Assembly (NCBI GenBank): GCA_963965975.1 | Contig: OZ014413.1 | Coordinates: 126,501 to 190,500, forward strand | Source: Xestospongia bergquistia | Taxonomy: Eukaryota; Porifera; Demospongiae; Haplosclerida; Petrosiidae | Direction of reading: 5' to 3' | Length of the DNA: 64,000 nt | Part shown: positions 5,801-28,000 of the stretch, piece after piece | How the letters are laid out: each line of letters opens with the position of its first letter | How positions within the stretch are numbered: position 1 is the stretch's first letter | The notes under the pieces: model-generated | Databases searched by the model: none | What the model was told of the DNA's origin: nothing | The model's input: only the letters and a program-made list of their open reading frames with translations | Position numbers and translations under genes: made by a program

Positions 5801-7950
5801 TACTATAATATTATTGAGTTTGTTTGTAGTTATTTTTAAGAATTAGTGATGGTTGCTATCGTTATCTAAAGGAGAGAGAGAAAAAACATTTAAATATGTC
5901 AGATGATGTACAAGAAATGATTCTACAATACAAGGTTCACTCTACAAACCCCATATACCAATATACTGACTAACCCCATATACCAACATACTGACTAACC
6001 CCATATACCAATATACTGACAAACCCCATATACCAACATACTGACTAACCCCATATACCAATATACTGACAAACCCCATATACCAACATACTAACTAACC
6101 CCATATACCAATATACTGACATATACCATCATACTGATTAGCTTACTTCCTGTAGGATTTCCTTTCCCAGTTAATCCAAACATGCTTCCATTCTCTTGAA
6201 CATCCGCTTGGTACATTTCAGAGAAGATATTTTGCTCTCTCTATCCTACAACTTATGAGTGATATATTTCAGAACACGCTCCAACAATTTGAATTCTTAG
6301 CTGTAGTTCCTAACTATATTGCTCAGGCACTAGTCTATATAATATGGGATACCTTTGATTCCAATAGACAACTAGCATTACAGCTAGTTAAGACTCTTAA
6401 CACAACTAAATTAATGGTAAGTATAATTACATGACAGTCATGTGACTATTTATTCATGTCATGTGATCTCTGTTATAGTATGATGACTCCACTCTTACTT
6501 TACTCATACAACATTGTTATCAACTGATTACTGGTCCTAAGTACACTAGTTGTACTACTGGCTGTCATCTCTTGACTTTACTGATAGATATTGCTCCTCA
6601 GAAACTAATCATGGCATTTTCCAATATCTCTGGGACCCCAATATTGGGTCTGTCCCCTTCGTTATTATTAATTAAATGTCTAATGGCTATCTTATGTAGT
6701 CATATGACAAAATGTAGACAGAATTTAATAGTTGGATCTATTAGCACTCCAATGTATGGCGTCATACAAGCTATTAGAGGAGTGTGGACTAAAGTAGATT
6801 TACAAATGGAGTAAGTCAGTTTAGTGCTGCTAAAAAGTTTTATTTTTTTTCGTAGCTCTGATATCTTGTCAAACCAGTTTGATGAGATACAGTCACTCAT
6901 TATAAACCTGATTGACTTATGTGTGGAAGTAGGAAAGATGGTTTCTCCCATTGTATGTAATAGTAGTCCTGAAGGGTTTTTACCCTCTGCAGATAATGAA
7001 GAGGTGTGGTCATATGCATAGCCAATAAATATACATAATATTACAATACAATAATGTTGATTGGTATATACTATTTAGGGAGAGGGTTATCGCCATGGCA
7101 ACTCACAATCAGTATTGTTATGTTGTTGGCATTGTATGAAGGAAGTTGTTCTATTATTAGCAGCAATTATACAAACCAGCCAAGAGGTGGGGCCAAAAAT
7201 GACATCATTGTTAACTACTAATGAGGTAGATTATATTTATCCATTTTCATTATAGTACATCCATTTGAAACGTCTATTCATCCATTTATATCTAGATGTC
7301 ACTCTACTGTTTTATAATTCATAGATTGAAGTCATTAGTACATTATTAATACAACAATTAACTGAAGCTAGACATCGCGGTGCATTTGAAATATCCTATG
7401 TTGGTTTTAGTAAACTCTGTCATTACCTATGGACCTCTAATAATACAGAGTTACAACTAAAACCGACATTATGGATTAAAGAGCTCCTATTGTCATTACA
7501 ATCATCATCACTAACACAACTTCTCTCTATTACTAGAAGAAGTGCTGGACTACCTTTTTATTGTCAAGTACGAATATACCGCCCACTCAATTATTATTAG
7601 ATCACTTTCTTTGTATAGGCTATTGTTATTACTGAACCGAAGAATAGAAATTATAGTTGTTTAAAGGAGATAATGACTAATCTACTAACTATTGCTACAG
7701 CACATTCAGATCCACCTTCCATAATCAAAGATGATAAAACTAATAATGAGGTATAACCCTATCATCACAGCTAATAATTAATATTAATTAACTCTCTTCT
7801 ATATAGCTAGTACCACAACCATCTTCAGTTCATGCTCTTAATATATTACGAGGATTATTTCGTGAGTCTAAATTAGGAGAGCTTGTCATTCCATATGTAG
7901 CAGTAGCTATTAAAATTGCTATTGAAGGATTTAAAGCACAATTCTGGCCG
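2850..7950 (+). pseudogene. THADA: THADA, N-terminal part only (truncated duplicate)
   Basis: The exons from the ATG at 2,850 to the one ending FKAQFWP at 7,950 correspond to the N-terminal and middle HEAT/ARM region of THADA, the partner of the FTSJ1/Trm7 2'-O-methyltransferase that modifies tRNA position 32. Recognisable family segments include LLEYIWSHWDDPID (about 4,645), the KYSLLSSLVPH stretch (about 4,955), LNSQSPWFRQQVLALLKK (about 5,740) and HALNILRGLFRESKLGELVIPYVA (about 7,835). The splice phases I checked agree, and I saw no stop in these exons. No THADA C-terminal exons follow; after the nested small genes the sequence enters the coiled-coil gene at 10,926. It is therefore a 3'-truncated duplicate, perhaps transcribed but unable to make a complete protein. 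Confidence 0.85.
5945..6130. repeat. 25-bp minisatellite in a THADA intron (copy 1)
   Basis: About seven units of the pattern ACCCCATATACCAATATACTG lie inside the intron between the exon ending MILQYK and the exon beginning DFLSQL. Copy 2 (about 19,154-19,365) has about one more unit, so the repeat has changed length since duplication. Confidence 0.9.
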
Positions 7951-8148: not shown

Positions 8149-8628
8149 TTAGACTTTAGATTGATTTGTGACAGTAACATATCGTGGTGGAGAGACATCC
8201 CTGAGTGGTGGGGAAACATCCTTAGGTGCTAGAGAGTATGGTGGTGGGGGATCTCTGTGTGGTGGGTACGCCCCTTCATGATGAGGGGCTATTGAGGGTA
8301 GTGTAATAGTAACTTGGGATTTTTCCTGAACCATATCATCACTTCTTGGTGGTTGTTCATCAGGTCTTTCTAGTTGTTCAGTAGATCTTACACATTGTCG
8401 AATGCATATCATGAGGAATCTTATGGTAGCTATAATAGCACCAACTGGAATCATATTGTCCCCCTAAGGAAAATCACTGAGGCTATTTCTACATTTCTAT
8501 AATGCTAATCATTGTTTAACAAAATGGCTCTTATGGAAAAATTATATATCTTGTTATCTTCTACATTGAATATCTTAAGCTAGCTAAAAGTATTAATAAT
8601 AGATTATTCATACTTACCTAACAATAAA
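8149..8628 (-). CDS. Small N-terminally anchored PPxY protein 1 (copy 1)
   Basis: Coding sequence runs from ATG at 8,454 to a stop at 8,149 (101 aa). An acceptor just upstream and a donor at 8,628 indicate a noncoding 5' exon, so no signal-peptide exon is needed. The N-terminus MIPVGAIIATIRFLMICIR is hydrophobic, probably a signal anchor, followed by Cys and a Gln/Asp-rich linker. The tail is Pro-rich with PPPPY near residue 71 and SPPRY near residue 89, both PPxY ligands for WW domains such as those of Nedd4-type ubiquitin ligases. I do not recognise the family. It is related to the other minus-strand genes at 10,183, 24,782 and 25,655. It lies antisense downstream of truncated THADA. Confidence 0.6.
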
Positions 8629-9121
8629 CCAAAGGTTCTTTCTGCCTTTTTTCTTTTTCTAAGTTATTATAATAATAGTAAAACAACTATTAGTCTCATA
8701 CCCAGACACCCACTCAGTTGATACATGAAAGGCCACTTGTTAGGTTGTATAATTCCCTAAGAATAGTATTGACAACATGTGCTGTTTTGATTGCTAATGT
8801 ATTCACTAATTCCTATGGAATTACATAGCTCATGTTTTATCATGATCACAGTATTGGACTAAGTCAGCAAACACCCTTAATCAAGTGGGCGGTATTTAGG
8901 CATGAGAATAAACATAATGTAATAACTTCTTAAATATTTTATGTAAACATGACAACACTTAGTCAAATTTATTTAATACTAATAACAACTACTAAATTGA
9001 ACTACAACATTACAGTGTATGTAATGTTGTGGTCTTATTTTCATGTTACATCAACTCTACTAACAGTTTACTTCCAAATCTCTAACTATATTCATATTGT
9101 CATCATTACTTTGTATATCCT
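8455..9121. other. Intergenic/intronic AT-rich spacer, copy 1
   Basis: This holds the upstream intron and noncoding first exon of small PPxY gene 1 (exon end at 8,628) and AT-rich sequence without a supported gene. The equivalent in copy 2 is 21,693-22,487. Confidence 0.4.
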
Positions 9122-9129
9122 GTCAGTAT

Positions 9130-9773
9130 TAGTGTTGTTTTAGTTAACTATAACTAAAACTATTTTAGTAAGTACTTTTTTGATTTAGTTAACTAACTAT
9201 AACTATAACTAAAATTATTTCAGGTAAGCATACTATAACTAAACTATAACTAAAATTATTTCAGGTAAGCATACTATAACTAAACTATAACTAAAATTAT
9301 TTCAGGTAAGCATACTATAACTAAACTATAACTAAAATTATTTCAGGTAAGCACACCATAACTAAACTATAACTAAAATTTTTGACAATTTTAGTGAACA
9401 TTGAGGTTTTATAGCCACATCTATACCCATGCTTCATTTCACTTACTACACCTATATTCATTTCACTTACCACACCTATAGGTGTGCTAACTGCTACAGG
9501 AAGTGATTAGTGATGCATAATAGGTGTGGTAAGTTCACAAGTTTACATAGTTGTCAATTAGTAACACAGTAACTATAGAAGGAAATGTTCTGCACATGAC
9601 CGAGCACATTGCTAGTTGAGACAGTAGAAGAAAACTTTAACTAAAACTAAAATAGACCTAATTTTAACTATAACTAATTTATGTTTAATTTTAGTAACTT
9701 CACTAATACTAAAACGCCTACCAGTAGGCTAACTTTGCTATAACTATAACTAATATGAAATGAAACAACACTA
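9130..9773. mobile_element. hAT-like MITE, present only in copy 1
   Basis: This 644-bp insertion is flanked by an exact 8-bp direct repeat GTCAGTAT (9,122-9,129 and 9,774-9,781), which occurs once at the empty site in copy 2 (near 22,482-22,489). Its ends are inverted: TAGTGTTGTTT at the left and AAACAACACTA at the right. The inside is rich in TAACTATAACTAAAA-type repeats, including about four tandem units of about 44 bp (9,215-9,365). It encodes nothing. Eight-bp target duplications are typical of hAT transposons. The empty site proves insertion as a unit. Confidence 0.9.
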
Positions 9774-10182
9774 GTCAGTATAGGGAGATACCCATAAAAT
9801 AAGATTAAAAAATTATAAAAATAACATTTTATAGTCTCAATATTCTGTCATATATGATTTACTAAATAGTAATCTTCAGAGCTTGATAGACCAATGAATA
9901 CTATACCTTTAAATTATACTGATGATTATAAGTAGATCTCTTGCTAAACTATTAAGTTCTTTTAATGTGCTTTACTTCTGATTCATACCTGCTTACCTTA
10001 TTAGCATTACATAGCATAGACGTCTTCTAGATACATAGTAATTTTTTTATAGTGATAACTTTGAATTAAAAGTCATTTTTCAGATACATTATGTGTGTAG
10101 ATAATTATAGTGTGTGAATTATATACTACATATATCAGTATTAGTATTAGTCCCATAATTCTTTGGTGTCTCGGATTAGACA

Positions 10183-10636
10183 TTATATAACAGTATATGG
10201 GGGTGGGGGAATATTCATGGATGATGGGGGCGGGGGAATATTCATGGATGATGGGGGCAGGGGAACATTCATGGATGATGGGGGCGGGGGAACATTCATG
10301 GATGATGGGGGCGGGGGAACATTCGTGTATGGCGCCATTTGTTGATAAGGAGCTGTTGGAGGTTGTATGGTTACATGAGGTTCCTCCTGGACCACTATTT
10401 GTTCGTATTCTCTTTGAGCTCTTGCTCTTGCATGTTGTTCTTCACATGATCTGATGCATGCTTTTATGAGAGTTACAATAAGACCAATAGGTATGATAAT
10501 AATCATATTGTCCTCCTGAAGAAAGGGTTAAAATTAATAAGCCATTGAAACTCTTTAGCAGTTAATTACTCTAATGGATTATTTTTAATGTACAACAACT
10601 ACATAGTACAGTCTTACTTCTATAGTTTAACTTACC
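10183..10636 (-). CDS. Small N-terminally anchored PPxY protein 2 (copy 1)
   Basis: ATG at 10,506, stop at 10,183 (107 aa), with an acceptor directly upstream and a donor for a noncoding first exon at 10,636. The N-terminus MIIIIPIGLIVTLIKACIRSCEEQ is a hydrophobic anchor ending in a Cys/Arg stop-transfer-like patch. A charged Arg/Ala segment follows, then four 9-residue repeats of the PPPPSSMNV type, then the terminal PPPPYTVI. The end combines a PPxY motif with a C-terminal Thr-Val-Ile that resembles a class I PDZ ligand. The repeats are a 27-bp minisatellite. It is paralogous to the 8,149, 24,782 and 25,655 genes through the anchor and Cys pattern. The family is unknown. Confidence 0.6.
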
Positions 10637-10829
10637 TAATAATAGACTAAATGTTCTTTCTTCCTTATTATAGACACTGCTTATCTCTCATAATCTTTAC
10701 ACACTACTATAATATACTATGGCTTTAGTTAGTTATTTTAAGAACTCTCTAAAATATAATTTTGCAATTAAGCATCTCCCTACAATAAAACACGCCTCTT
10801 TTTATGAATAACAAGTAATATGTTCACAC

Positions 10830-10861
10830 AGGAATCAGTCTCATTTCAGAGACTGATTCCT
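10830..10861. repeat. Perfect 13-bp-arm hairpin (copy 1)
   Basis: AGGAATCAGTCTC, a 6-base loop ATTTCA, then the exact reverse complement. It sits about 65 bp before the duplication breakpoint at 10,925. It is also present in copy 2 at 23,539-23,570. Related strings (GACTGATACC, CCATTTAGACTG) recur at 24,570-24,655 and 26,280-26,360. Confidence 0.7.
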
Positions 10862-10925
10862 ATACCATTTTATACTGCACCCATGACATTTTATCTATTA
10901 GAATGACAGATTCTATGCATAATTT

Positions 10926-13824
<2,899 letters not shown>

Positions 13825-14004
13825 TTGACATTATTATAGGAGCTCCAGTCCAGTCACCTCCATAATTCAGCAATGACATCAAAAATTAAACTAGTACCGA
13901 CAAAATTATCAAGCTAAAATTATAGTTATAATAATAATTATTTTTTAGCGAATCAGTATTAATAATTTAATTCCAATTTAAAAATTCTCTTAGCCTTAAA
14001 GACA

Positions 14005-14146
14005 GCACAATTGAAACCAACAATTGATGAACTTATTGATGGACTTGATGAAGTTACTAATTGGTTTCATTTGGGGGTATATTTACATATTCCTTACCAC
14101 AAACTAACTGAAATTGAGTCAAAAAATAAAGGGTTTAGTTATTTAT
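14005..14146 (+). pseudogene. Death-domain-like fragment (copy 2)
   Basis: This is the duplicate of the fragment at 470-606, with small differences such as Ile-Asp in place of Ile-Asn in the ELINGL stretch and Tyr for Cys in the IPCHK stretch. Like copy 1 it ends abruptly in A-rich sequence before the GC-rich element at 14,161. It is probably non-functional. Confidence 0.4.
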
Positions 14147-14160
14147 AAAAAAAAAAACAT

Positions 14161-14506
14161 GTTGTGTTGCCCAAACGATTCCTACTCGCTCACCCACTCA
14201 GGCTTCCACTTAGGCTCCAGGATTCCCTGCTATTGCTAGCTGGGACCGCCACCTGGCTTGGTAACCCTCGTCTTCGCGAGGTAATCCTGGCTGGAGCATC
14301 GCCCTAACTTAAAACCAGCCGTACGGGATTCCAGCTCTTAGGGAATATCGCATTCAGGAACCGGGAACCACAAATACACCAGCCTCTTCTCGTTTAAAGG
14401 GAGACTACCAGCCCTATCCTAGTCGGCCTTTCGGATACTCCGTAGAGTATGCTGGTAACCATCTCAGAGGTCTGATGCATTGCAGAACGCTGGCCCACAA
14501 CACAAC
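14161..14506. mobile_element. GC-rich 346-bp element (copy 2)
   Basis: This has the same length as the block at 634-979, the same 9-bp inverted ends and only one or two obvious substitutions. It was carried here by the segmental duplication and is not a second insertion. Confidence 0.45.
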
Positions 14507-15068
14507 CTATCCAAGGTGGTTTTCATTTCCTTTTATATGTACTGCAGATTTTGTCATCATGCTCTTGTGGGGCGCCCTGTTTGTTGCCTATGAATATCAT
14601 TAACGCTAGTTTGTGATTACCGGCGTCAGTGAGTTAACGACACCTATGAAGATGATTACTATAGCATCGATGAGACTGCTAAAGAAATTAATACTACTAA
14701 AATACTGTAACTTTTAAGAGCTAAGAATAAAACTAGCCCTACTTAAGCAAAGTAGAACAACACTACTAATTATAATAATTTTTTTCATATTTTAAGGTTA
14801 AAGGGGCTTAAAAAAATAAAAATCATTACCTAAACACTCTTCTTCATTATCTAAATTTATAACAGCTCCTTTAGTTCCTCAAGTGCTCCAGCTTTGGATA
14901 ACTTTCTTAAGCCAATGGCTTTCGACTTACCTTGTTGTAGCTATAATTAGCTAATTATATAGGGTCAACCTAACTGTCTATATAACAGTTAATACAAAAA
15001 TGGAAATTCATGATTTTATGTCTCAATTTTATAAGAAGTGGTGGCATAAGTTTAAGCTTTTAAAAAAA

Positions 15069-15690
15069 GTTATGGAGTTATCGTAAACCATTAATATTGG
15101 AGCAATTACAAAGAATAGATGCTGATCTCATATGCTTACAAAGTGTTGATCACTATCATGACTTCTTGCAGCCTTTTTTTCAAAGAGATGGATATCATAG
15201 TATTTTGTTGCAAGGCCACACTCAAAATGTCTTAAATTTGTACCTAACAATGGTTCAGATGGTATTGCATTACTTTATAACACTAAATGGTTGAAATTAG
15301 TCAAGAAGAAAGAAATTATTTTACCTACAAATGATCCTGCCCTATCTAATTCTAACCAGGTTGCTATTTTAGCCAGCTTCCAAACTTCCAGTAATAAGAT
15401 ATGTGTAGTAGTAACTGGATTAAAAGAAGGACACTTTTTAGTTCAGACAAGATTACTTTAAGGTGACTATATCTTAGATCAAATACGAGAGTTTGCAGGA
15501 GACTTACCTTTAATATGTTGTGGTAACTTCAATGCTGGTCCCAAAGAACTAGTCTATGGTCACTTCTCATCATCAAAACCTCCTATCTCTAGTGCATACA
15601 ACAGAGAGGGTTCTGAGCCAAACTTTACTGTATGGAAATGCAGTGCATCTGGTAATGTTAAATTGCCAGCAGATTATATATGGTATTCAT
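15069..15690 (+). pseudogene. NOCT: Nocturnin-like EEP-domain sequence, decayed (copy 2)
   Basis: This is the duplicate of 1,879-2,485. It keeps the bases deleted in copy 1, so EQLQRIDADLICLQSVDHY reads through, and it preserves NREGSEPNFTVWKCSASG near the end. It has its own in-frame TAA where copy 1 has CAA (near 15,459). It shares with copy 1 the frame break before NGSDG and the Glu-to-Ser and Asp-to-Asn losses in the active-site motifs. The shared lesions indicate that the gene was already dead or non-catalytic before the duplication. Confidence 0.75.
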
Positions 15691-15865
15691 CTTGATTAAC
15701 AGGAGATGCCTTCAAGTGCTCATTAGTTTCTTGATTGACAGGAGTTTCCTTCAACTGCTCATTAGTTTCTTGATTAGCAGGAATTTCCTCTATCTGCTCA
15801 TTAGTTTCTTGATTAACAGGAGTTTCCTCATTTGATTCAGTAGTTTCATCTGTTGGCTCATTCAT
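15674..15865 (-). CDS. Possible short acidic protein segment with 13-residue repeats (copy 2)
   Basis: This is the duplicate of 2,474-2,665 with a few conservative changes (Leu to Ile, Ser to Thr, Thr to Ser) and the frame intact. In this copy the frame extends upstream through KEYFPGEEFLPKIPDPED to a stop near 15,955. An open frame in both copies is weak evidence because they are so similar overall. Confidence 0.3.
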   Translation of the reverse strand: MNEPTDETTESNEETPVNQETNEQIEEIPANQETNEQLKETPVNQETNEHLKASPVNQDEYHI

Positions 15866-16058
15866 TTCATATATAATATCTTCAGGATCAGGAATCTTGG
15901 GTAGAAATTCCTCTCCAGGAAAATACTCTTTAAAAAATATAGTTCATTCGTGAACGGAGTTAGTATACGGAAACGTTCTTAAATTTGTGTAGAAATAAAA
16001 TGCGGGTTATAGTTAATCAGCTCCGTATACTATAAAAACGTGCGTTGTATGCTTATTA

Positions 16059-19000
16059 ATGGCTGCTAGGAAGGGTAAGCATGTTCAACGATTTTCTGGA
16101 GAATACTGGAAGAAATGGAAGGCAGAAATAGAGCAGACATTAGAAGATGGTAGCCATGGTAACCTAATATAGTTCTTACTAACTAATATGATATATTATA
16201 GTAGTTCTAGAACAGGTGGACATAATATTTACAGCATCAGAATTATCACCTCAACTGACTGCCATTAAAAAGGTGTCATTATCTATAAAATATATTTTTA
16301 ATTTATGTTGATTTTTAAAAGGTACAAGAAGTACTTTGTAAAGAGATTTGTTCTGATGTTGCCATGGCAACTATTGTTAAGGGGTTTGTAGAGCTTCATT
16401 CACAATGTTTGTCTCGTCATCCAGTGCAAAGAACAATAGCAAGGTAAAATGATAATGTCATAATGATGTCATAATGGGTTTAAAAATTAAAATATATTTT
16501 ATTTAACTCTAGTGTCCTTCATGTAATATCACAGAACTATCAATCTGATATTGTCTTATCAGCTATTATCAGTCACCTAACTGATTTAATTAAAGAGGGT
16601 GTGGTCAATACAATGGTGGATTATGTCCAGTCACTAATGGAACATTTTCCACCTGGAGAGACAGTTTTACACCTATCAATTCCAATAGGTAACTAATTAT
16701 CAGGATTATCCTCTTAATAGTGTCTGTCATATATAATTATATATAGTACTTTATGAATTTAACAATATTTTAACAAGTCAATTTAAGGAATGTCTTGAGG
16801 GGTTAGTTACATGAGGTAAATCCTGTTAATTATTAGATTATTTAGGTCATTAGAATCACGGGAAATATTATTGTCATCATCAAAAGTTTTATTAAATGTT
16901 TTGTTGCATTGTCAACAATTGCTCGTACAATTGACAAAGTCATGTGACCCTAATGATGTCATAATGACATCATTAGGAATGGATGGAGTATCTATTTCAG
17001 AGATACATTGGCCTGTGGTATGTACTAGTGACAGATCCTGTGAATGGTTAACTGAACAATTGAGAGCTTTGAGATTTTTATCTGAAACACTATTAAAAGA
17101 AGGTAAGGCTATCATACATGTGATGGAGTGAAAAGCATTATAAAAGACACTGTGTATTGAGGATACCCTTTATATTAAGGACATATGTTCTAGTCCCATA
17201 CTAATACTTTAGTGTATTATTATTAATACAACCTCTATAATGAGGACATCTCTATCTGAAAGCAATAGAGATGTTTGTTGCATCAACTCTAATTTAGTGG
17301 ATATCTATTTCTCTAAATACTTGTTAATAATTTTTTCCATTCTTTTTGTAGCTGACCAATTTACAAGAGATCTTATCATTTCAATAGCAATGCTATTAGT
17401 GGTTACCATAGCAATCCTAAATCCTTCAACTCTTGACGTTGTTCTTCCTCCCTTATGTCACCAATGGTTACATAACTCCCACACATCATTACCACTATTA
17501 TCACAACTCGCAATAACTCATGCTTTAATAGCAAAGCTTTCAACAACAGAGTTAACTAACATTAAAGTTGAAGGAACTCAACTATTACTATGGATTTTTA
17601 ATATAATATGTAACCTTGTAGACAAGTGAGTACTATGAACTCAATACATGTATATGTACATGTTATGTCACATGTGCTTGTATAGGTTTACTGAGTCTAC
17701 TGACTGTTATGCAGTCTCTCGTACATTATCATTGTGGACAAATGAATTGAGGTATATATAATTGTGTATATTATGGTTTATTAGTAGGAGTCCATGTAGG
17801 ATGACAGTGGATGTTGTCAATGATGTAGCTCCTGAAAGAGATCCTATTAAGAAATTATTGGAATATATTTGGTCTCATTGGGATGACCCTATTGATGTAA
17901 ATATAATTACATATTAATTAATAGTATGTTATTTTTAATAATTATTATAGGGAATACGACAACAATGTAAGAATATGTTTGATAACTTGATTGAGTTCTA
18001 TGTGGAACTTAAAAAAACAGGTACATATATATAATGGATGTTTTAGTATTACTCTCTCTCTCTCTTTCTTAGGGACTCAATCTACAGATCATCTCTATTC
18101 TCTTGCTTCCTCACTCTTCTCTCTCCCGTCCCCCACACGTGGGAAATACTCTTTATTATCATCACTAGTACCTCATATAACTATCTCTAAAATAATTTCA
18201 GAGTGGCCACACCTACCAGCAGAACTTATGAACACAATGGGTCATCAAATATTAGCATGTAAAGTGGGTGTGGTTGAGTTATGTAGCTTATATAAATATA
18301 ATATCTCACATAGGCTGGAGACTTATGGTGTAAGTTAGTTTATCAACATTATAAAGAAGTGGACAATGAGATCTGGAAACAAGTAAGTATTATTAGTAAT
18401 GGCTTAATTATATTCATTGCTTTCCTAGACATGGGTTGTACCCCTAGTTACTACTCTATTATCAAGTAATTCGTTACCTCGACTTCATATTAAGCAGGTA
18501 CAGTGTGTAAATGGTAAATAAATACTGTATTTATTATAATTTGTAGTATTGTTTATCAATTCTGTTCACAACTTCTCCTTGTGCTATGGATATTATCAAT
18601 GAAACTATCACATGTTTATCACATGACCTGTCATGTGACCTGGCGGATATGTTAACAGTTCAGTTGTTATGTATGAGTACTGGGAGTATAGTTACTGGAC
18701 CAGAAACTAAGTCTAGTGAGAAGAACTACTTCGATATATTGAACAGGGCTATTTGTCATGGAGATGACCAGGTAAGATGGCAGAGAAAGGGAGGGAGAGA
18801 TGGAGACTGACAGACATGTACATAATATATTTATTATTTTATATTCAGGTTGTTGTGTCTGCCTTACAAATAGTCTGTGATAGTAAACGTACTACAGACT
18901 TACCCTCAATCCCATACCTACCTGTGGTATTGGAATGTGTCCGACTACATCTGAATTCTCAATCTCCTTGGTTTCGTCAACAGGTACTAGCTCTATTAAA

Positions 19001-22000
19001 GAAGGTACAACTATACTATAATATTATTGAGTTTGTTTGTAGTTATTTTTAAGAATTAGTGATGGTTGCTATCGTTATCTAAAGGAGAGAGAGAAAAAAC
19101 ATTTAAATATGTCAGATGATGTACAAGAAATGATTCTACAATACAAGGTTCACTCTACAAACCCCATATACCAATATACTGACTAACCCCATATACCAAC
19201 ATACTGACTAACCCCATATACCAATATACTGACAAACCCCATATACCAACATACTGACTAACCCCATATACCAATATACTGACAAACCCCATATACCAAT
19301 ATACTGACAAACCCCATATACCAACATACTAACTAACCCCATATACCAATATACTGACATATACCATCATACTGATTAGCTTACTTCCTGTAGGATTTCC
19401 TTTCCCAGTTAATCCAAACATGCTTCCATTCTCTTGAACATCCGCTTGGTACATTTCAGAGAAGATATTTTGCTCTCTCTATCCTACAACTTATGAGTGA
19501 TATATTTCAGAACACGCTCCAACAATTTGAATTCTTAGCAGTAGTTCCTAACTATATTGCTCAGGCACTAGTCTATATAATATGGGATACCTTTGATTCC
19601 AATAGACAACTAGCATTACAGCTAGTTAAGACTCTTAACACAACTAAATTAATGGTAAGTATAATTACATGACAGTCATGTGACTATTTATTCATGTCAT
19701 GTGATCTCTGTTATAGTATGATGACTCCACTCTTACTTTACTCATACAACATTGTTATCAACTGATTACTGGTCCTAAGTACACTAGTTGTACTACTGGC
19801 TGTCATCTCTTGACTTTACTGATAGATATTGCTCCTCAGAAACTAATCATGGCATTTTCCAATATCTCTGGGACCCCAATATTGGGTCTGTCCCCTTCGT
19901 TATTATTAATTAAATGTCTAATGGCTATCTTATGTAGTCATATGACAAAATGTAGACAGAATTTAATAGTTGGATCTATTAGCACTCCAATGTATGGCGT
20001 CATACAAGCTATTAGAGGAGTGTGGACTAAAGTAGATTTACAAATGGAGTAAGTCAGTTTAGTGCTGCTAAAAAGTTTTATTTTTTTTCGTAGCTCTGAT
20101 ATCTTGTCAAACCAGTTTGATGAGATACAGTCACTCATTATAAACCTGATTGACTTATGTGTGGAAGTAGGAAAGATGGTTTCTCCCATTGTATGTAATA
20201 GTAGTCCTGAAGGGTTTTTACCCTCTGCAGATAATGAAGAGGTGTGGTCATATGCATAGCCAATAAATATACATAATATTACAATACAATAATGTTGATT
20301 GGTATATACTATTTAGGGAGAGGGTTATCGCCATGGCAACTCACAATCAGTATTGTTATGTTGTTGGCATTGTATGAAGGAAGTTGTTCTATTATTAGCA
20401 GCAATTATACAAACCAGCCAAGAGGTGGGGCCAAAAATGACATCATTGTTAACTACTAATGAGGTAGATTATATTTATCCATTTTCATTATAGTACATCC
20501 ATTTGAAACGTCTATTCATCCATTTATATCTAGATGTCACTCTACTGTTTTATAATTCATAGATTGAAGTCATTAGTACATTATTAATACAACAATTAAC
20601 TGAAGCTAGACATCGCGGTGCATTTGAAATGTCCTATGTTGGTTTTAGTAAACTCTGTCATTACCTATGGACCTCTAATAATACAGAGTTACAACTAAAA
20701 CCGACATTATGGATTAAAGAGCTCCTATTGTCATTACAATCATCATCACTAACACAACTTCTCTCTATTACTAGAAGAAGTGCTGGACTACCTTTTTATT
20801 GTCAAGTACGAATATACCGCCCACTCAATTATTATTAGATCACTTTCTTTGTATAGGCTATTGTTATTACTGAACCGAAGAATAGAAATTATAGTTGTTT
20901 AAAGGAGATAATGACTAATCTACTAACTATTGCTACAGCACATTCAGATCCACCTTCCATAATCAAAGATGATAAAACTAATAATGAGGTATAACCCTAT
21001 CATCACAGCTAATAATTAATATTAATTAACTCTCTTCTATATAGCTAGTACCACAACCATCTTCAGTTCATGCTCTTAATATATTACGAGGATTATTTCG
21101 TGAGTCTAAATTAGGAGAGCTTGTCATTCCATATGTAGCAGTAGCTATTAAAATTGCTATTGAAGGATTTAAAGCACAATTCTGGCCGGTTAGTAAGTTA
21201 TAATTAAATGAGTGGGCAACAAAAATTATTTTAAATGACAGACAATTTTTGACTGAGGGACATGAGTTGTTAATAATAGTAAATAAATAAGATGTATGTA
21301 CATTATGTGTAGATTATATACTATATGAGTTAAGTAATGAATATCAATATTAATGTCACACTTTATTAGTACTACAGTGTCTCTGATTAGACTTTAGATT
21401 GATTTGTGACAGTAACATATCGTGGTGGAGAGACATCCCTGAGTGGTGGGGAAACATCCTTAGGTGCTAGAGAGTATGGTGGTGGGGGATCTCTGTGTGG
21501 TGGGTACGCCCCTTCATGATGAGGGGCTATTGAGGGTAGTGTAATAGTAACTTGGGATTTTTCTTGAACCATATCATCACTTCTTGGTGGTTGTTCATCA
21601 GGTCTTTCTAGTTGTTCAGTAGATCTTACACATTGTCGAATGCATATCATGAGGAATCTTATGGCAGCTATAATAGCACCAACTGGAATCATATTGTCCC
21701 CCTAAGGAAAATCACTGAGGCTATTTCTACATTTCTATAATGCTAATCATTGTTTAACAAAATGGCTCTTATGGAAAATTATATACCGTAAACGTCAAAA
21801 TTTTTGAGGTAGTTATATTTTCGGGATTGACACAAAACGCGAAATTATGAGTTCGCGAAAATTTTACGCGCGAAAGTTTGAGCGGTGAAAATTTTGACAT
21901 TTACGGTATCTTGTTATCTTCTACATTGAATATCTTAAGCTAGCTAAAAGTATTAATAATAGATTATTCTTACTTACCTAACAATAAACCAAAGGTTCTT

Positions 22001-25000
22001 CCTTCCTTTTTTCTTTTTCTAAGTTATTATAATGATAGTAAAACAACTATTAGTCTCATACCCAGACGCCCACTCAGTTCATACATGAAAGGCCACTTGT
22101 TAGGTTGTATAATTCCCCAAGAAGAGTATTGACAACATGTGCTGTTTTGATTGCTAATGTATTCACTAATTCCTATGGAATTACATAGATCGTGTTGTAT
22201 CATGATCACAGTATTGGACTAAGTCAGCAAACACCCTTAATCAAGTGGGCGGTATTTAGGCATGAGAATAAACGTAATGTAATAACTTCTTAAATATTTT
22301 ATGTAAACATGACAACACTTAGTCAAATTTATTTAATACTAATAACAACTACTAAATTGAACTACAACATTACAGTGTATGTAATGTTGTGGTCTTATTT
22401 TCATGTTACATCAACTCTACTAACAGTTTACTTCCGAATCTCTAACTATATTCATATTGTCATCATTACTTTGTATATCCTGTCAGTATAGGGAGATACC
22501 CATAAAATAAGATTAAAAAATTATAAAAATAACACATTTTATAGTCTCAATATTCTGTCATATATGATTTACTAAATAGTAATCTTCAGAGCTTGATAGA
22601 CCAATGAATACTATACCTTTAAATTATACTGATGATTATAAGTGGATCTCTTGCTAAACTATTAAGTTCTTATAATGTGCTGTACTTCTGATTCATACCT
22701 GCTTACCTTATTAGCATTACATAGCATAGACGTCTTCTAGATACAAAGTAAATTTTTTGTAGTGATAACTTTGAATTAAAAGTCATTTTTCAGATACATT
22801 ATGTGTGTAGATAATTATAGTGTGTGAATTATATACTACATTATCAGTATTAGTATTAGTCCCATAATTCTTTGGTGTCTCGGATTAGACATTATGTAAC
22901 AGTATATGGGGGTGGGGGAATATTCATGGATGATGGGGGCGGGGGAATATTCATGGATGATGGGGGCAGGGGAACATTCATGGATGATGGGGGCGGGGGA
23001 ACATTCATGGATGATGGGGGCGGGGGAACATTCGTGTATGGCGCCATTTGTTGATAAGGAGCTGTTGGAGGTTGTATGGTTACATGAGGTTCCTCCTGGA
23101 CCACTATTTGTTCGTATTCTCTTTGAGCTCTTGCTCTTGCATGTTGTTCTTCACATGATCTGATGCATGCTTTTATGAGAGTTACAATAAGACCAATAGG
23201 TATGATAATAATCATATTGTCCTCCTGAAGAAAGGGTTAAAATTAATAAGCCATTGAAACTCTTTAGCAGTTAATTACTCTAATGGATTATTTTTAATGT
23301 ACAACAACTACATAGTACAGTCTTACTTCTATAGTTTAACTTACCTAATAATAGACTAAATGTTCTTTCTTCCTTATTATAGACACTGCTTATCTCTCAT
23401 AATCTTTACACACTACTATAATATACTATGGCTTTAGTTAGTTATTTTAAGAACTCTCTAAAATATAATTTTGCAATTAAGCATCTCCCTACAATAAAAC
23501 ACGCCTCTTTTTATGAATAACAAGTAATATGTTCACACAGGAATCAGTCTCATTTCAGAGACTGATTCCTATACCATTTTATACTGCACCCATGACATTT
23601 TATCTATTAGAATGACAGATTCTATGCATAATTTATCCTGGGATTATATCATACATAGACCTAAATATAGTAACACATAGACCTAAATATAGTAACACAC
23701 TTTCTAAAACTAGTAATGTGATCAACATGTTGGATAAATCCAAATATTACTATAATCAGTTTATTTAATGTAACCACACTTAGTTAAATCAATTTCACAC
23801 TATTAGCATATACTGAACTGTTATTTATCTATGACAAAAGTAAATACAAAAACATTTACACAACATAGCACAGTTTATTAACAATTTAGTCAGTATTATT
23901 TACACTTGTTCTAGTGGTATTGTTGGTTGTGATGTAGCGTGGTTCAAAGGTGGTTGTAGTCTAGGAACAGACACCATAGTATATGCATAGCCGGAAGCTC
24001 CTGGGATTACATGGTATACTTGAGTTTGTTGAGGAACTATGATCCTTGCCTCACTTGACATCTTTGAGGTTGCTCGACAGCAACTTCAACCAAAGGACTG
24101 TGTTGTTGTCGAGCTTGTGATTGTGCCCGATCATCTTGACAAGACTTGTTCTGAAATAGCTGTTGCTATGAATCCAATAGATATTATTATCATTGTATTG
24201 GAGATAATATTCTAGATGTTATGATAAATACTTATGACTAAAATCAGTATCATTGTACTTGGTACAAAACATATTTACTTGTTTTCTGCATATAATCTAA
24301 CAAGACACATTATACTTAATCTCATGCTATTTGACATGATGTCATTAGAATATTTTAACCACAACAAAATATGCATATTAATAATATGTATTACATATAG
24401 TATATTAACTATATTTCTAACTCACCTTCACATTCAAACACTGGCTCTTTCTTTTACTGATATTTGTATTTCCTTGTTTTCAAGTTATCTGATAGTGAAT
24501 TCATTGTTAGGGAATTTTTACATTGTTTATGAATTACTTTATAAATTCATATTACTTCAAGTGAGGTCTCCAAACAGTCTAAATGGCTGGACCTCAGCCT
24601 ATACTGATTTGTTGGTGACACTCATAGGTTCATTCCTGTACCATTTAGACTGATACCTCTGTATCCAACTAGTATTATGAAATAAGTTGGATATTGTTTT
24701 ACTAAAATGAAATTGCATTTAGAATTATTTATCAGATAAACAGCATCATATTTAGTTCTGAAGGTGATTTCTTCAGTTTGTCTAAACAGGAGGTTGCTGA
24801 GCTATCACTGTATAACCAGGAGGCTGAGGATATATCACTTGTTGATGTGGGACTGGGTATGGCATACTGATCCCAATGTGAGGTTCCTCTATCTTAACAT
24901 CGCTGGCCATTCGTTGATGTCTTCGTCTTCTTCTTGCTAGGTAATGTGCTCTTGACTGATCACGTTGTTCTTCACATGATCTAATACATGCAGTTATGAG

Positions 25001-28000
25001 TCGTACAATAAGTCCAATTGGAACAATTATTATCATTGTCCTAAGATATGAATTAAAGTTAACAAATTAGCTTAGATGTACTGCATGGAACCTAAGTATT
25101 TTAACTAACATAATATCCTAGATGTTATGATAAATACTTATGACTAAAATCAGTATCATTGTACTTGTTACAAAACATAATTGTTTTCTGCATATAATCT
25201 AACAAGACACATTATACTTAGTCTCATGCTATTTGACATGATGTCATTAGAATATTTTAACCACAACAAAATATGCATATTAATAATATGTATTACATAT
25301 AGTATATTAACTATATTTCTAACTCACCTTCACATTCAAACACTGGCTCTTTCTTTTACTGATATTTGTATTTCCTTGTTTTCAAGTTATCTGATAGTGA
25401 ATTCATTGTTAGGGAATTTTTACATTGTTTATGAATTACTTTATAAATTCATATTATATCAAGTGAGGTCTCCGAACAGTCTAAATAGCATGGACCTCAG
25501 CCTATAATGATTTGTTGGTGACACTCATAGGTTCATTCCTGTACCATTTAGACTGATACCTCTGTACCTAACTAGTATTATGAAATAAATTTGATATTGT
25601 TTTACTAAAATGAAATTGCATTTAGAATTATTTATCAGATAAACAGCATCATATTTAGTTCTGAACGTAATTTGTTCGGTTCGTCGAAACAGGAGGTTGC
25701 TGAGCTATCACTGTATAACCAGGAGGCTGAGGATATACCACTAGTTGACGTGGGACTGGATGTGGCATACTGATCCCAATGTGAGGTTCCTCTATCTTAA
25801 CATCGCTGGCCATTCGTTGATATCTTCGTCTTTCTCTTGCTTGGGAACGTGCTCTTGACTGATCGCGTTGTTCTTCACATGATCTAACACATGCAGTTAT
25901 GAGTCGTACAATAAGTCCAATTGGAACAATTATTATCATTATCCTAAGATATGAAATAGAGATAACAAATTAGCTTAAATGTAATTCATGGGACCTAAGT
26001 ATTTTAACTTAAAACACACTTAAGGATAGCACCTCCTTTCTCTTTCCTTTTTGATTTTGTTTATATAGTACATTCTTTACATACTTGTGCTAATGTATGT
26101 TGACATTTCAAGATTATATAGATTTAATAGCTTACTTAAATTAATTACAGTTCAGATTATTCTTGCATTGTATTTTCTTTTAATAGATCTAGTTTTATGC
26201 TATGTATTTAGACTCATTTCTGTACCATTTTGTAGACTGAGATAATGTGACTGACATCAATGTGATTTGGACTGGTTCTAGTATAACCTAGACTGATACC
26301 AATACCACTTAGATTGATACCAATACCACTTAGACTGATACCAATACCACTAAGACTTATGCCAATGTCTCCTTTAGATTCGTAATTCCTGTACTTTATT
26401 ATTAAGTGCTTTAATTGCTCGTGTGTTTGGTGTCAAAAGAGTACAAGACGAACGCTCTATTGAAAATAAAATGACTTCTCGCGAGTTCTTTGCTCGCTTT
26501 CCCTCTCTTCACTCTTTTCTCTTAGAGACACTGGAAACTGCTCTGCAAAAACAACTACCAGAAAGGTAAATGAGATACTATAGACAATGGAAACCTCTAT
26601 ATATATAAAGGCACCATAATTTATATAACATAATGTCCTCAAAATAAAAGAGATGCTCCTTAAATTAGTATAGTTTGGTATCAAGTAAGCTTCATGCTTC
26701 ATTTCTTTTTTAGTTTATTTCCTGTGTTGATGCTTCTCTCTCGTCTCTATCCTTCACCATTGGATGATGTACAATCTTCTCTTTCTCTTCTACCATTTCA
26801 AGCCCCTCTCATTAGGTACTTTAATGAGTCCACCCTATATTTAATTTTAGTTATCACTTTGTTAGGGCTGCAAGTAATCCTGTTTGGAAATGTCGCGTGC
26901 TGGTAGCTCATGCTTTCTTACCAACTGTCACACCTCACACTGTTGCTACAGTCTTGTCAAACCTGTTATCCAAACTAGTTTTATCTAATCAAAACCAGTT
27001 ACATGGTCTGTTACTGATAGTTGAAGCTGTGTTAAGTACTGAGAACCATGATGGAATTTTTAAAGGAGAGCTACGCAGTCAACTTGATAAATTACTCCAT
27101 CTGTTCTTAACAAAGAGATACATTGGTCAAAAGTGAGTGGTATTACCCTGTAATATTGTTTTATTATTATTAATTATTTTTAGAACTAATCAATGTGTTA
27201 TTACTAGGGGTCTATATCTTAAATGTGTGATGCTATTTTTTCAGTTAATGTCAACAGATGCTTTTAAAGAACTACCATTGTTATCTTATAACTATCTTCT
27301 TGAGTTAATATTAGATTGCCAAAATGACTTACTAAAAGGAGAGAAGTACCATTTAGACATGGAGCTTGTGATACATGAATTCTCTCTTCTATTGAAAATA
27401 ACCTTTCTCTTTCCTGCAAATGAAATCATACTGTCACCTTTGAAAATAGCATTGTTGTCATGGCAACAGTATCCTAACGTGGAGGTTATTTATGAATGTA
27501 TTCGAATGTCAGTATTTAATAGAGAACTAACAAGAAAAGAAGAGATAGAACTTGCAACAATAGCAATAAAGAAAACTGAAGATAATTTGCAATATGTAAG
27601 TGAATATAATTTATATTATTTGTATTCTTTCTTTGTTATAGAGTTATCAATTGTTATCTCATTTATTTGAAATGTGGAACAATGACATACCCCAACAATT
27701 AGATATTGATTGGTTTAATCTGTTTAACACAACAGTAACTAAACTATCTACACAGTGTTTAAGGTAAAGATCAATGCATTATTTATTAGTATATATTACT
27801 TACTAGTACATCATATAATAATATAGTTAATGCCAGTTATTACTGGATCATTTTACCAGTACTTAAATGCACTATATACCAATGTCTTTCTTACTGTGCT
27901 CATGTCCCAATTTATTATTCTTAATATACAGAGAAGAAGTTAAAGTGGCTATGATTCATTGGTGTAGTTATTATTTGAAGACCTTACCATCACTTAGTGA

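Follow-up and report, generated by a model that had tools for sequence, protein, structure and literature searches.

Several short membrane proteins which recruit ubiquitin ligases by PPxY (PY) motifs have been described. Drosophila Comm is short, has a single membrane segment, lacks a signal sequence and recruits Nedd4 through cytoplasmic PY motifs (PMC5578492, PMC12101832), and these motifs are needed, together with Nedd4, for ubiquitination and lysosomal degradation of Robo1 (PMC12101832). CYYR1 binds WWP1 via PPxY, is located at late endosomes and leads to degradation of WWP1 (PMC11399591). The same source groups CYYR1, WBP1, WBP1L, VOPP1 and TMEM92 as the Shisa-like STMC6 family, which combines a membrane segment with multiple PPxY motifs in the tail, and describes NDFIP as PPxY-bearing adaptors recruiting Nedd4-type ligases; Ndfip1/2 and Bsd2 form the family NEDD4_Bsd2 (PF10176). 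PRRG1-4 and yeast Rcr1/Rcr2 are likewise short, span the membrane and carry L/PPxY or related motifs on the cytoplasmic side, and the similar build of Comm, Rcr1/2, PRRG, CYYR and Shisa had been noted earlier (PMC5578492 for both).

The window analyzed here is the whole stretch of 64,000 nucleotides (C3:126501-190500), taken from a 146-Mb assembly of 21 contigs. It contains six minus-strand ORFs of 84-107 amino acids which, together with one frame-broken copy, cover positions 8149-25939 (Table 1). At least six open copies and one pseudogene, all on the minus strand, had been listed in the initial annotation, and six open copies and the pseudogene were found. A careful count, however, gives four intact types (A, B, C and D) and one broken copy (E) instead of six independent genes, since A and B each occur twice by means of a near-identical large tandem repeat, possibly as mis-assembled alleles. 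In E, the head, the CQDDRAQSQARQQ middle and the tail each lie in a different frame, with stops in between.

Table 1. Positions in the window of the PPxY ORFs, the exon-1 blocks and the flanking THADA exons.
Feature	Positions	Strand	Description
THADA DUF2428, second copy	6899-7947		
A1	8149-8454	minus	101-aa ORF; head MIPVGAII..CIRQC; tail with PPPPYSLA and PPRYVTV
A1, conserved 31-nt block	8612-8642	minus	end of putative non-coding exon 1 and GTAAGT donor (donor G 8617)
B1	10183-10506	minus	107-aa ORF; head MIIIIPIGLIV..CIRSCEEQ; four PPPPSSMN-type repeats, then final PPPPYTVI
B1, conserved exon-1 block	10630-10660	minus	GTAAGT donor (donor G 10635)
THADA DUF2428 (PF10350) exons	20137-21185	plus	profile matches; one side of the right-hand set
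A2	21387-21692	minus	copy of A1, one amino acid changed; between THADA exons
A2, exon-1 block	21972-22002	minus	GTAAGT donor (donor G 21977)
B2	22892-23215	minus	copy of B1, one amino acid changed (final residue I to T)
B2, exon-1 block	23339-23369	minus	GTAAGT donor (donor G 23344)
E	23900-24193	minus	frame-broken copy
C	24782-25036	minus	84-aa ORF; tail PPGYTVI; within the 906-bp repeat
D	25655-25939	minus	94-aa ORF; tail PPGYTVI; within the 906-bp repeat
THADA Trm732_C (PF25151) exons	26381-26554 and 26843-27028	plus	profile matches; other side of the right-hand set; only matches in the genome

Relatedness of the types was assessed by local alignment against 2000 shuffles in which head and tail composition were kept apart, for five of the six cross-type pairs (the near-identical pair C-D was left out). 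The real score was reached by one shuffle for A-D and by none for A-B, A-C, B-C and B-D. Hydrophobic N-terminus, C-x-R-x-C patch and PPxY tail are common to all four types, and C17, R19 and C21 (counted from Met, ungapped) align in all of them. The anchor pattern MIIIIPIGLIV..LI.ACIRSCEEQ, proposed for every copy, describes B, C and D; A retains C17-x-R19-x-C21 but differs before it. As predicted, every tail carries PPxY, twice in A (PPPYSLA and PPRYVTV) and once each in B (PPPYTVI), C and D (PPGYTVI in both). Taken together, these sequence comparisons support a genuine family of short PPxY proteins that has expanded by local duplication.

The best 17-residue hydropathy window of the head starts at residue 2 and ranges from 2.27 (A) to 2.68 (B); the helical moment for residues 8-24 is 1.18-1.47, a range for which there is no control baseline. 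An AlphaFold model of B consists of a single helix (residues 7-39) with no other element at low confidence (mean pLDDT 58), which lends weak support to a build of anchor plus disordered tail. Arg12 is present in the heads of A, C and D, and a short hydrophobic core with this residue would also suit a monotopic amphipathic helix. The B tail, a repeat with a 27-nt unit, also opens an 85-aa ORF on the plus strand, at 10197-10454 and again at B2 (22906-23163); this is probably a by-product of the repeat. A tRNA scan of window positions 6000-27000 detected none.

A substitution ratio favoring protein conservation between the paralogues had been named in advance as the point on which the family would stand or fall, and the outcome is divided. 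In the first 24 codons of B and D, which align ungapped, 9.7 silent differences in 16.8 sites (pS 0.57) were counted versus 5.3 replacement differences in 55.2 sites (pN 0.10; Fisher's exact test, 6e-5). The differences in this head are distributed over the three codon positions as 3, 2 and 10, and the same DNA read in frames +1 and +2 gives no silent excess (Fisher, 0.9 and 1). Blocks picked by eye were examined in the same way: a silent excess was found for the 6-codon PPxYTVI block of the B-D tail (4 silent, 2 replacement; Fisher, 0.022), the B-D EEPH-x-x-I block (Fisher, 0.025) and the A-B QE-block (Fisher, 0.0013), and no significant excess for the A-D middle block (Fisher, 0.13). Y-T-V-I has 2 silent and no replacement changes between B and D. 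Judged by these substitutions, the B-D head is under protein-level constraint, and the tail and middle blocks probably are as well.

For the A head and for C-D, on the contrary, this signal is lacking. The A head compared ungapped with those of B and D has no silent excess (ratios 0.87 and 0.99). Between C and D, 2 silent changes stand against 11 replacements, with a noncoding divergence of 3.3% downstream (19/577) and 11% upstream (8/70); their substitutions give no sign of constraint since the duplication, and the B-D constraint mostly reflects the time before the C-D split. A1-A2 (1 silent, 1 replacement) and B1-B2 (0 silent, 1 replacement) are too alike to be informative.

Upstream of A and B an ordered layout was found. 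The 31-nt block ends TTAG/GTAAGT and matches between A and B in 27 of 31 positions, which was reached by none of 500 null sequences. A search of the whole genome for this block, with N at four variable places and up to three mismatches, returned four places, all of them in this cluster, and none for the reversed control. The putative intron of A1 (8617-8464, 154 nt) ends in a TTAG acceptor and that of B1 (10635-10516, 120 nt) in a CAG acceptor, each 9 nt upstream of ATG. C and D have an acceptor-like TTAG ahead of ATG, but a consensus donor is missing from the aligned place, and their upstream DNA resembles A or B at best as much as chance would predict (a match reached by 156 to 338 of 500 nulls). 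The initial annotation had assigned to all copies a common non-coding first exon with an acceptor just before ATG. The exon is borne out for A1, A2, B1 and B2, but not for C and D, because the donor is missing and the upstream match does not exceed chance; for the acceptor, A1 and B1 agree, and C and D have the acceptor-like TTAG only. AATAAA follows the stop by ~20 nt in A1, A2 and E; for B, C and D, the first 150 nt beyond the stop contain neither AATAAA nor ATTAAA. Expression and splicing of A-D are predictions; a coding exon still further upstream is conceivable.

Duplication at two scales, 906 bp and 12.7 kb, had been proposed. Self-comparison recovered the smaller one as a tandem repeat of two units (24204-25106 and 25110-26009, 95%) which holds C and D. 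The larger scale is correct for the offset between B1 and B2 and for the length of the right unit (~12.7 kb, 10924-23634); the left unit, however, begins 5.8 kb outside the window on its left side, ends at 10924 and measures ~16.7 kb, and A1 and A2 lie 13.2 kb apart. Positions 1-23634 are the portion of this large repeat inside the window. Its left unit is the longer one due to insertions and an internal 3.3-kb tandem repeat (-4110 to -776 and -780 to 2550, 98.7%). Between the units, substitutions in the window amount to 30/6718, 24/1540, 7/1154 and 13/583 aligned columns, plus larger indels. The intron of A2 contains an insertion of ~120 bp (21785-21907) with inverted ends (CCGTAAATGTCAAAATTTT ... 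AAAATTTTGACGTTTACGG), which is absent from A1; by its sequence it is MITE-like, and it differs between the two large repeat units. A1/A2 and B1/B2 could be paralogues or mis-assembled alleles. As two alleles could, in our judgement, also differ as much as the units do, the assembly may contain a false duplication.

The host gene had been named as THADA, and this was confirmed by the matches to DUF2428 and Trm732_C exons. Antisense nesting in a THADA intron, claimed for the whole cluster, holds for the right-hand set (21387-25939: A2, B2, E, C and D), since DUF2428 exons lie on one side and Trm732_C exons on the other. For A1 and B1, however, it is not supported: a profile search of the genome found no Trm732_C exons for the THADA copy to their left, and to their right ORFs and the repeat indicate the start of a second copy of a coiled-coil-like gene. 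Parts of this coiled-coil-like gene lie in the large-repeat segment, as does the THADA copy for which Trm732_C exons were not detected. Further to the right (30400-62100), ORFs and repeats reveal an array of ~11 copies of a gene family which, we presume, resembles core-2/I-branching N-acetylglucosaminyltransferases. Small nested genes of such size can, in general, escape annotation.

The family had been called unrecognised, and no Pfam family exceeds the cut-off for any of the four proteins. A and B gave zero Pfam families; for C (E 0.0019) and D (E 0.003) a Transformer profile was rejected, as it stayed below the curated cut-off and covered an Arg-rich stretch. None of the four proteins matched PHROGs, and a profile search of 177635 PDB sequences had no match. 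In prokaryote genomes, searched with D only, 76 pattern matches were obtained and none was confirmed; in viral contigs, searched with a six-row alignment, none of 31 was. A phage or viral origin was rejected on the grounds of the absent PHROG matches and of the unconfirmed viral-contig matches.

In the host's own genome, taken for a sponge's in the initial annotation, A finds two matches, A1 and A2, and D finds six, of which four are family copies and the others have E values of 1.3 and 2.4. B finds eleven: six are family copies, four have E values of 0.08 to 5, and one, at E 4.8e-6, is a repeat-rich ORF. This ORF, the sole match outside the family below E 0.01 for queries A, B and D, was judged unrelated. 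It is a long, Ser/Thr-rich minus-strand ORF (L045, 430-3309; C1 near 7.25 Mb) with a membrane-segment-like stretch and a PPNY-rich repeat tail. A pattern search of the genome that used a presumed anchor DNA string returned nothing, and tblastn across the whole window plus the adjoining 20 kb on the left (E up to 5) found no further convincing remnant. Among the literature matches listed, in which subscription literature is thinly covered, no publication deals with this PPxY ORF family. As far as could be searched, across Pfam, PHROGs, PDB, prokaryote, viral and own-genome sequences, the family is new in sequence; its kind is already known.

We give about an even chance to the reading that A-D are locally duplicated genes for tiny membrane proteins with the tail in the cytosol, serving as PY adaptors for Nedd4-type WW-HECT ligases. 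Approximately 18 hydrophobic N-terminal residues would anchor each protein in the membrane, next to a C-x-R-x-C patch which would probably be palmitoylated. The disordered Pro-rich tail would display one or two PPxY motifs, extended to PPxYTVI in B, C and D, bind the WW domains of Nedd4-type HECT ligases and draw these ligases to the plasma membrane or to endosomes; either the ligase itself or membrane proteins close by would then be ubiquitinated and passed on to lysosomes. YTVI, which can also be read as a tyrosine-based sorting signal, would route the adaptor into the endocytic pathway. Membrane insertion, topology, palmitoylation, WW binding and the trafficking role are predictions from sequence. 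From the PPxY motif we infer a link to WW-domain ligases, and the one line of support for it comes from the genome, in which 46 WW and 106 HECT profile matches were counted (exon pieces, not genes). At four loci (C14 1.21 Mb, C10 0.845 Mb, C10 0.18 Mb and C12 3.08 Mb), WW matches are found within ~10 kb of HECT matches on one strand, the arrangement of Nedd4-type ligases. Against PY adaptors counts that PPxY arises easily in Pro-rich tails, the unrelated L045 ORF having 12 in the part examined; the C-D replacement excess, the ratios of the A head, the lack of significance in the A-D middle block, Arg12 and the missing poly(A) signals of B, C and D are further points of this kind.

It is somewhat unlikely that these are real short membrane proteins whose tails mainly serve partners other than ubiquitin ligases, such as YxxPhi adaptor sorting, a PDZ ligand at the C-terminus of B1, or SH3 or Hippo-type WW proteins. 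Y-T-V-I kept between B and D would fit this, as would the second motif of A, since YVTV presumably conforms to YxxPhi, the TVI end of B1, and the many WW matches which are not near a HECT match; yet PPxY is present in all four types, YTVI is not C-terminal in C and D, and B2 ends in TVT. We consider it unlikely that the cluster consists mostly of decaying remnants, left by an ancient small gene family that now drifts and in which B, and perhaps A, alone still functions. The broken E, the lack of a consensus donor at the aligned place in C and D, their excess of replacement differences, and the pairs A1-A2 and B1-B2, too alike for testing, count in its favor; four intact types with PPxY in each argue against it, as does the B-D constraint, though this stems mostly from before the C-D split. 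Chance ORFs were rejected on account of the frame-specific B-D constraint and the shuffle scores, and chance ORFs or an untranslated repeat, taken as a joint account of the cluster, are very improbable. The DNA is AT-rich intron DNA and the B tail is a short tandem repeat which opens an ORF on the other strand too, but the B-D codon-position bias and the ordered succession of exon 1, acceptor and ATG in A and B speak against this; moreover, the B-D silent excess would have to be an alignment artefact, although the alignment is ungapped. Quite unlikely, finally, is a more specific account in which ectodomain-less PY adaptors originated in this lineage at the THADA locus and diversify by local duplication, the C-D replacement excess being adaptive. 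If true, fast-changing linkers and tails would provide a tunable set of membrane ligase recruiters.

Read as PY adaptors, A-D would belong to the short membrane-anchored PY adaptors, a functional kind and not a homology family, of which the predicted anchor and the PPxY motifs are present in their sequences. By analogy, they may work like Comm and CYYR1. The likeness to Comm concerns features that are only predicted for A-D, and Comm, compared by its description, differs in that the membrane segment of A-D lies at the extreme N-terminus. According to PMC5578492, Comm has an extended LPSY motif, a further difference, and very little conservation outside its motifs, in which it resembles A-D. 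For CYYR1, PMC11399591 describes a signal peptide and a Cys-rich domain ahead of the membrane segment, whereas the ORFs of A-D start in the hydrophobic segment; the Cys-rich lumenal domain, hallmark of STMC6, is thus absent from them, the upstream exon of A and B being outside the ORF. The STMC6 Pfam profile has no match above cut-off in A-D, and the WBP-1 profile has none in this genome, but none in any control either. PRRG proteins differ by their Gla domain (PMC5578492), for which the four proteins have no Pfam match. The four proteins likewise have no PF10176 match and one hydrophobic segment each. Ndfip1/2 and Bsd2 have several membrane segments. One separate PF10176 match is located elsewhere in the genome (C3 at 10.73 Mb). 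By these sequence tests, A-D are not members of STMC6, PRRG or Ndfip. If they are PY adaptors, their reduction to an anchor and a tail would make them close to the smallest such proteins in nature, and, as a further set without detected homology, they would add to the view that short PY adaptors are invented repeatedly. A-D look like an unrelated, fast-changing version of an adaptor kind known from other animals and yeast.
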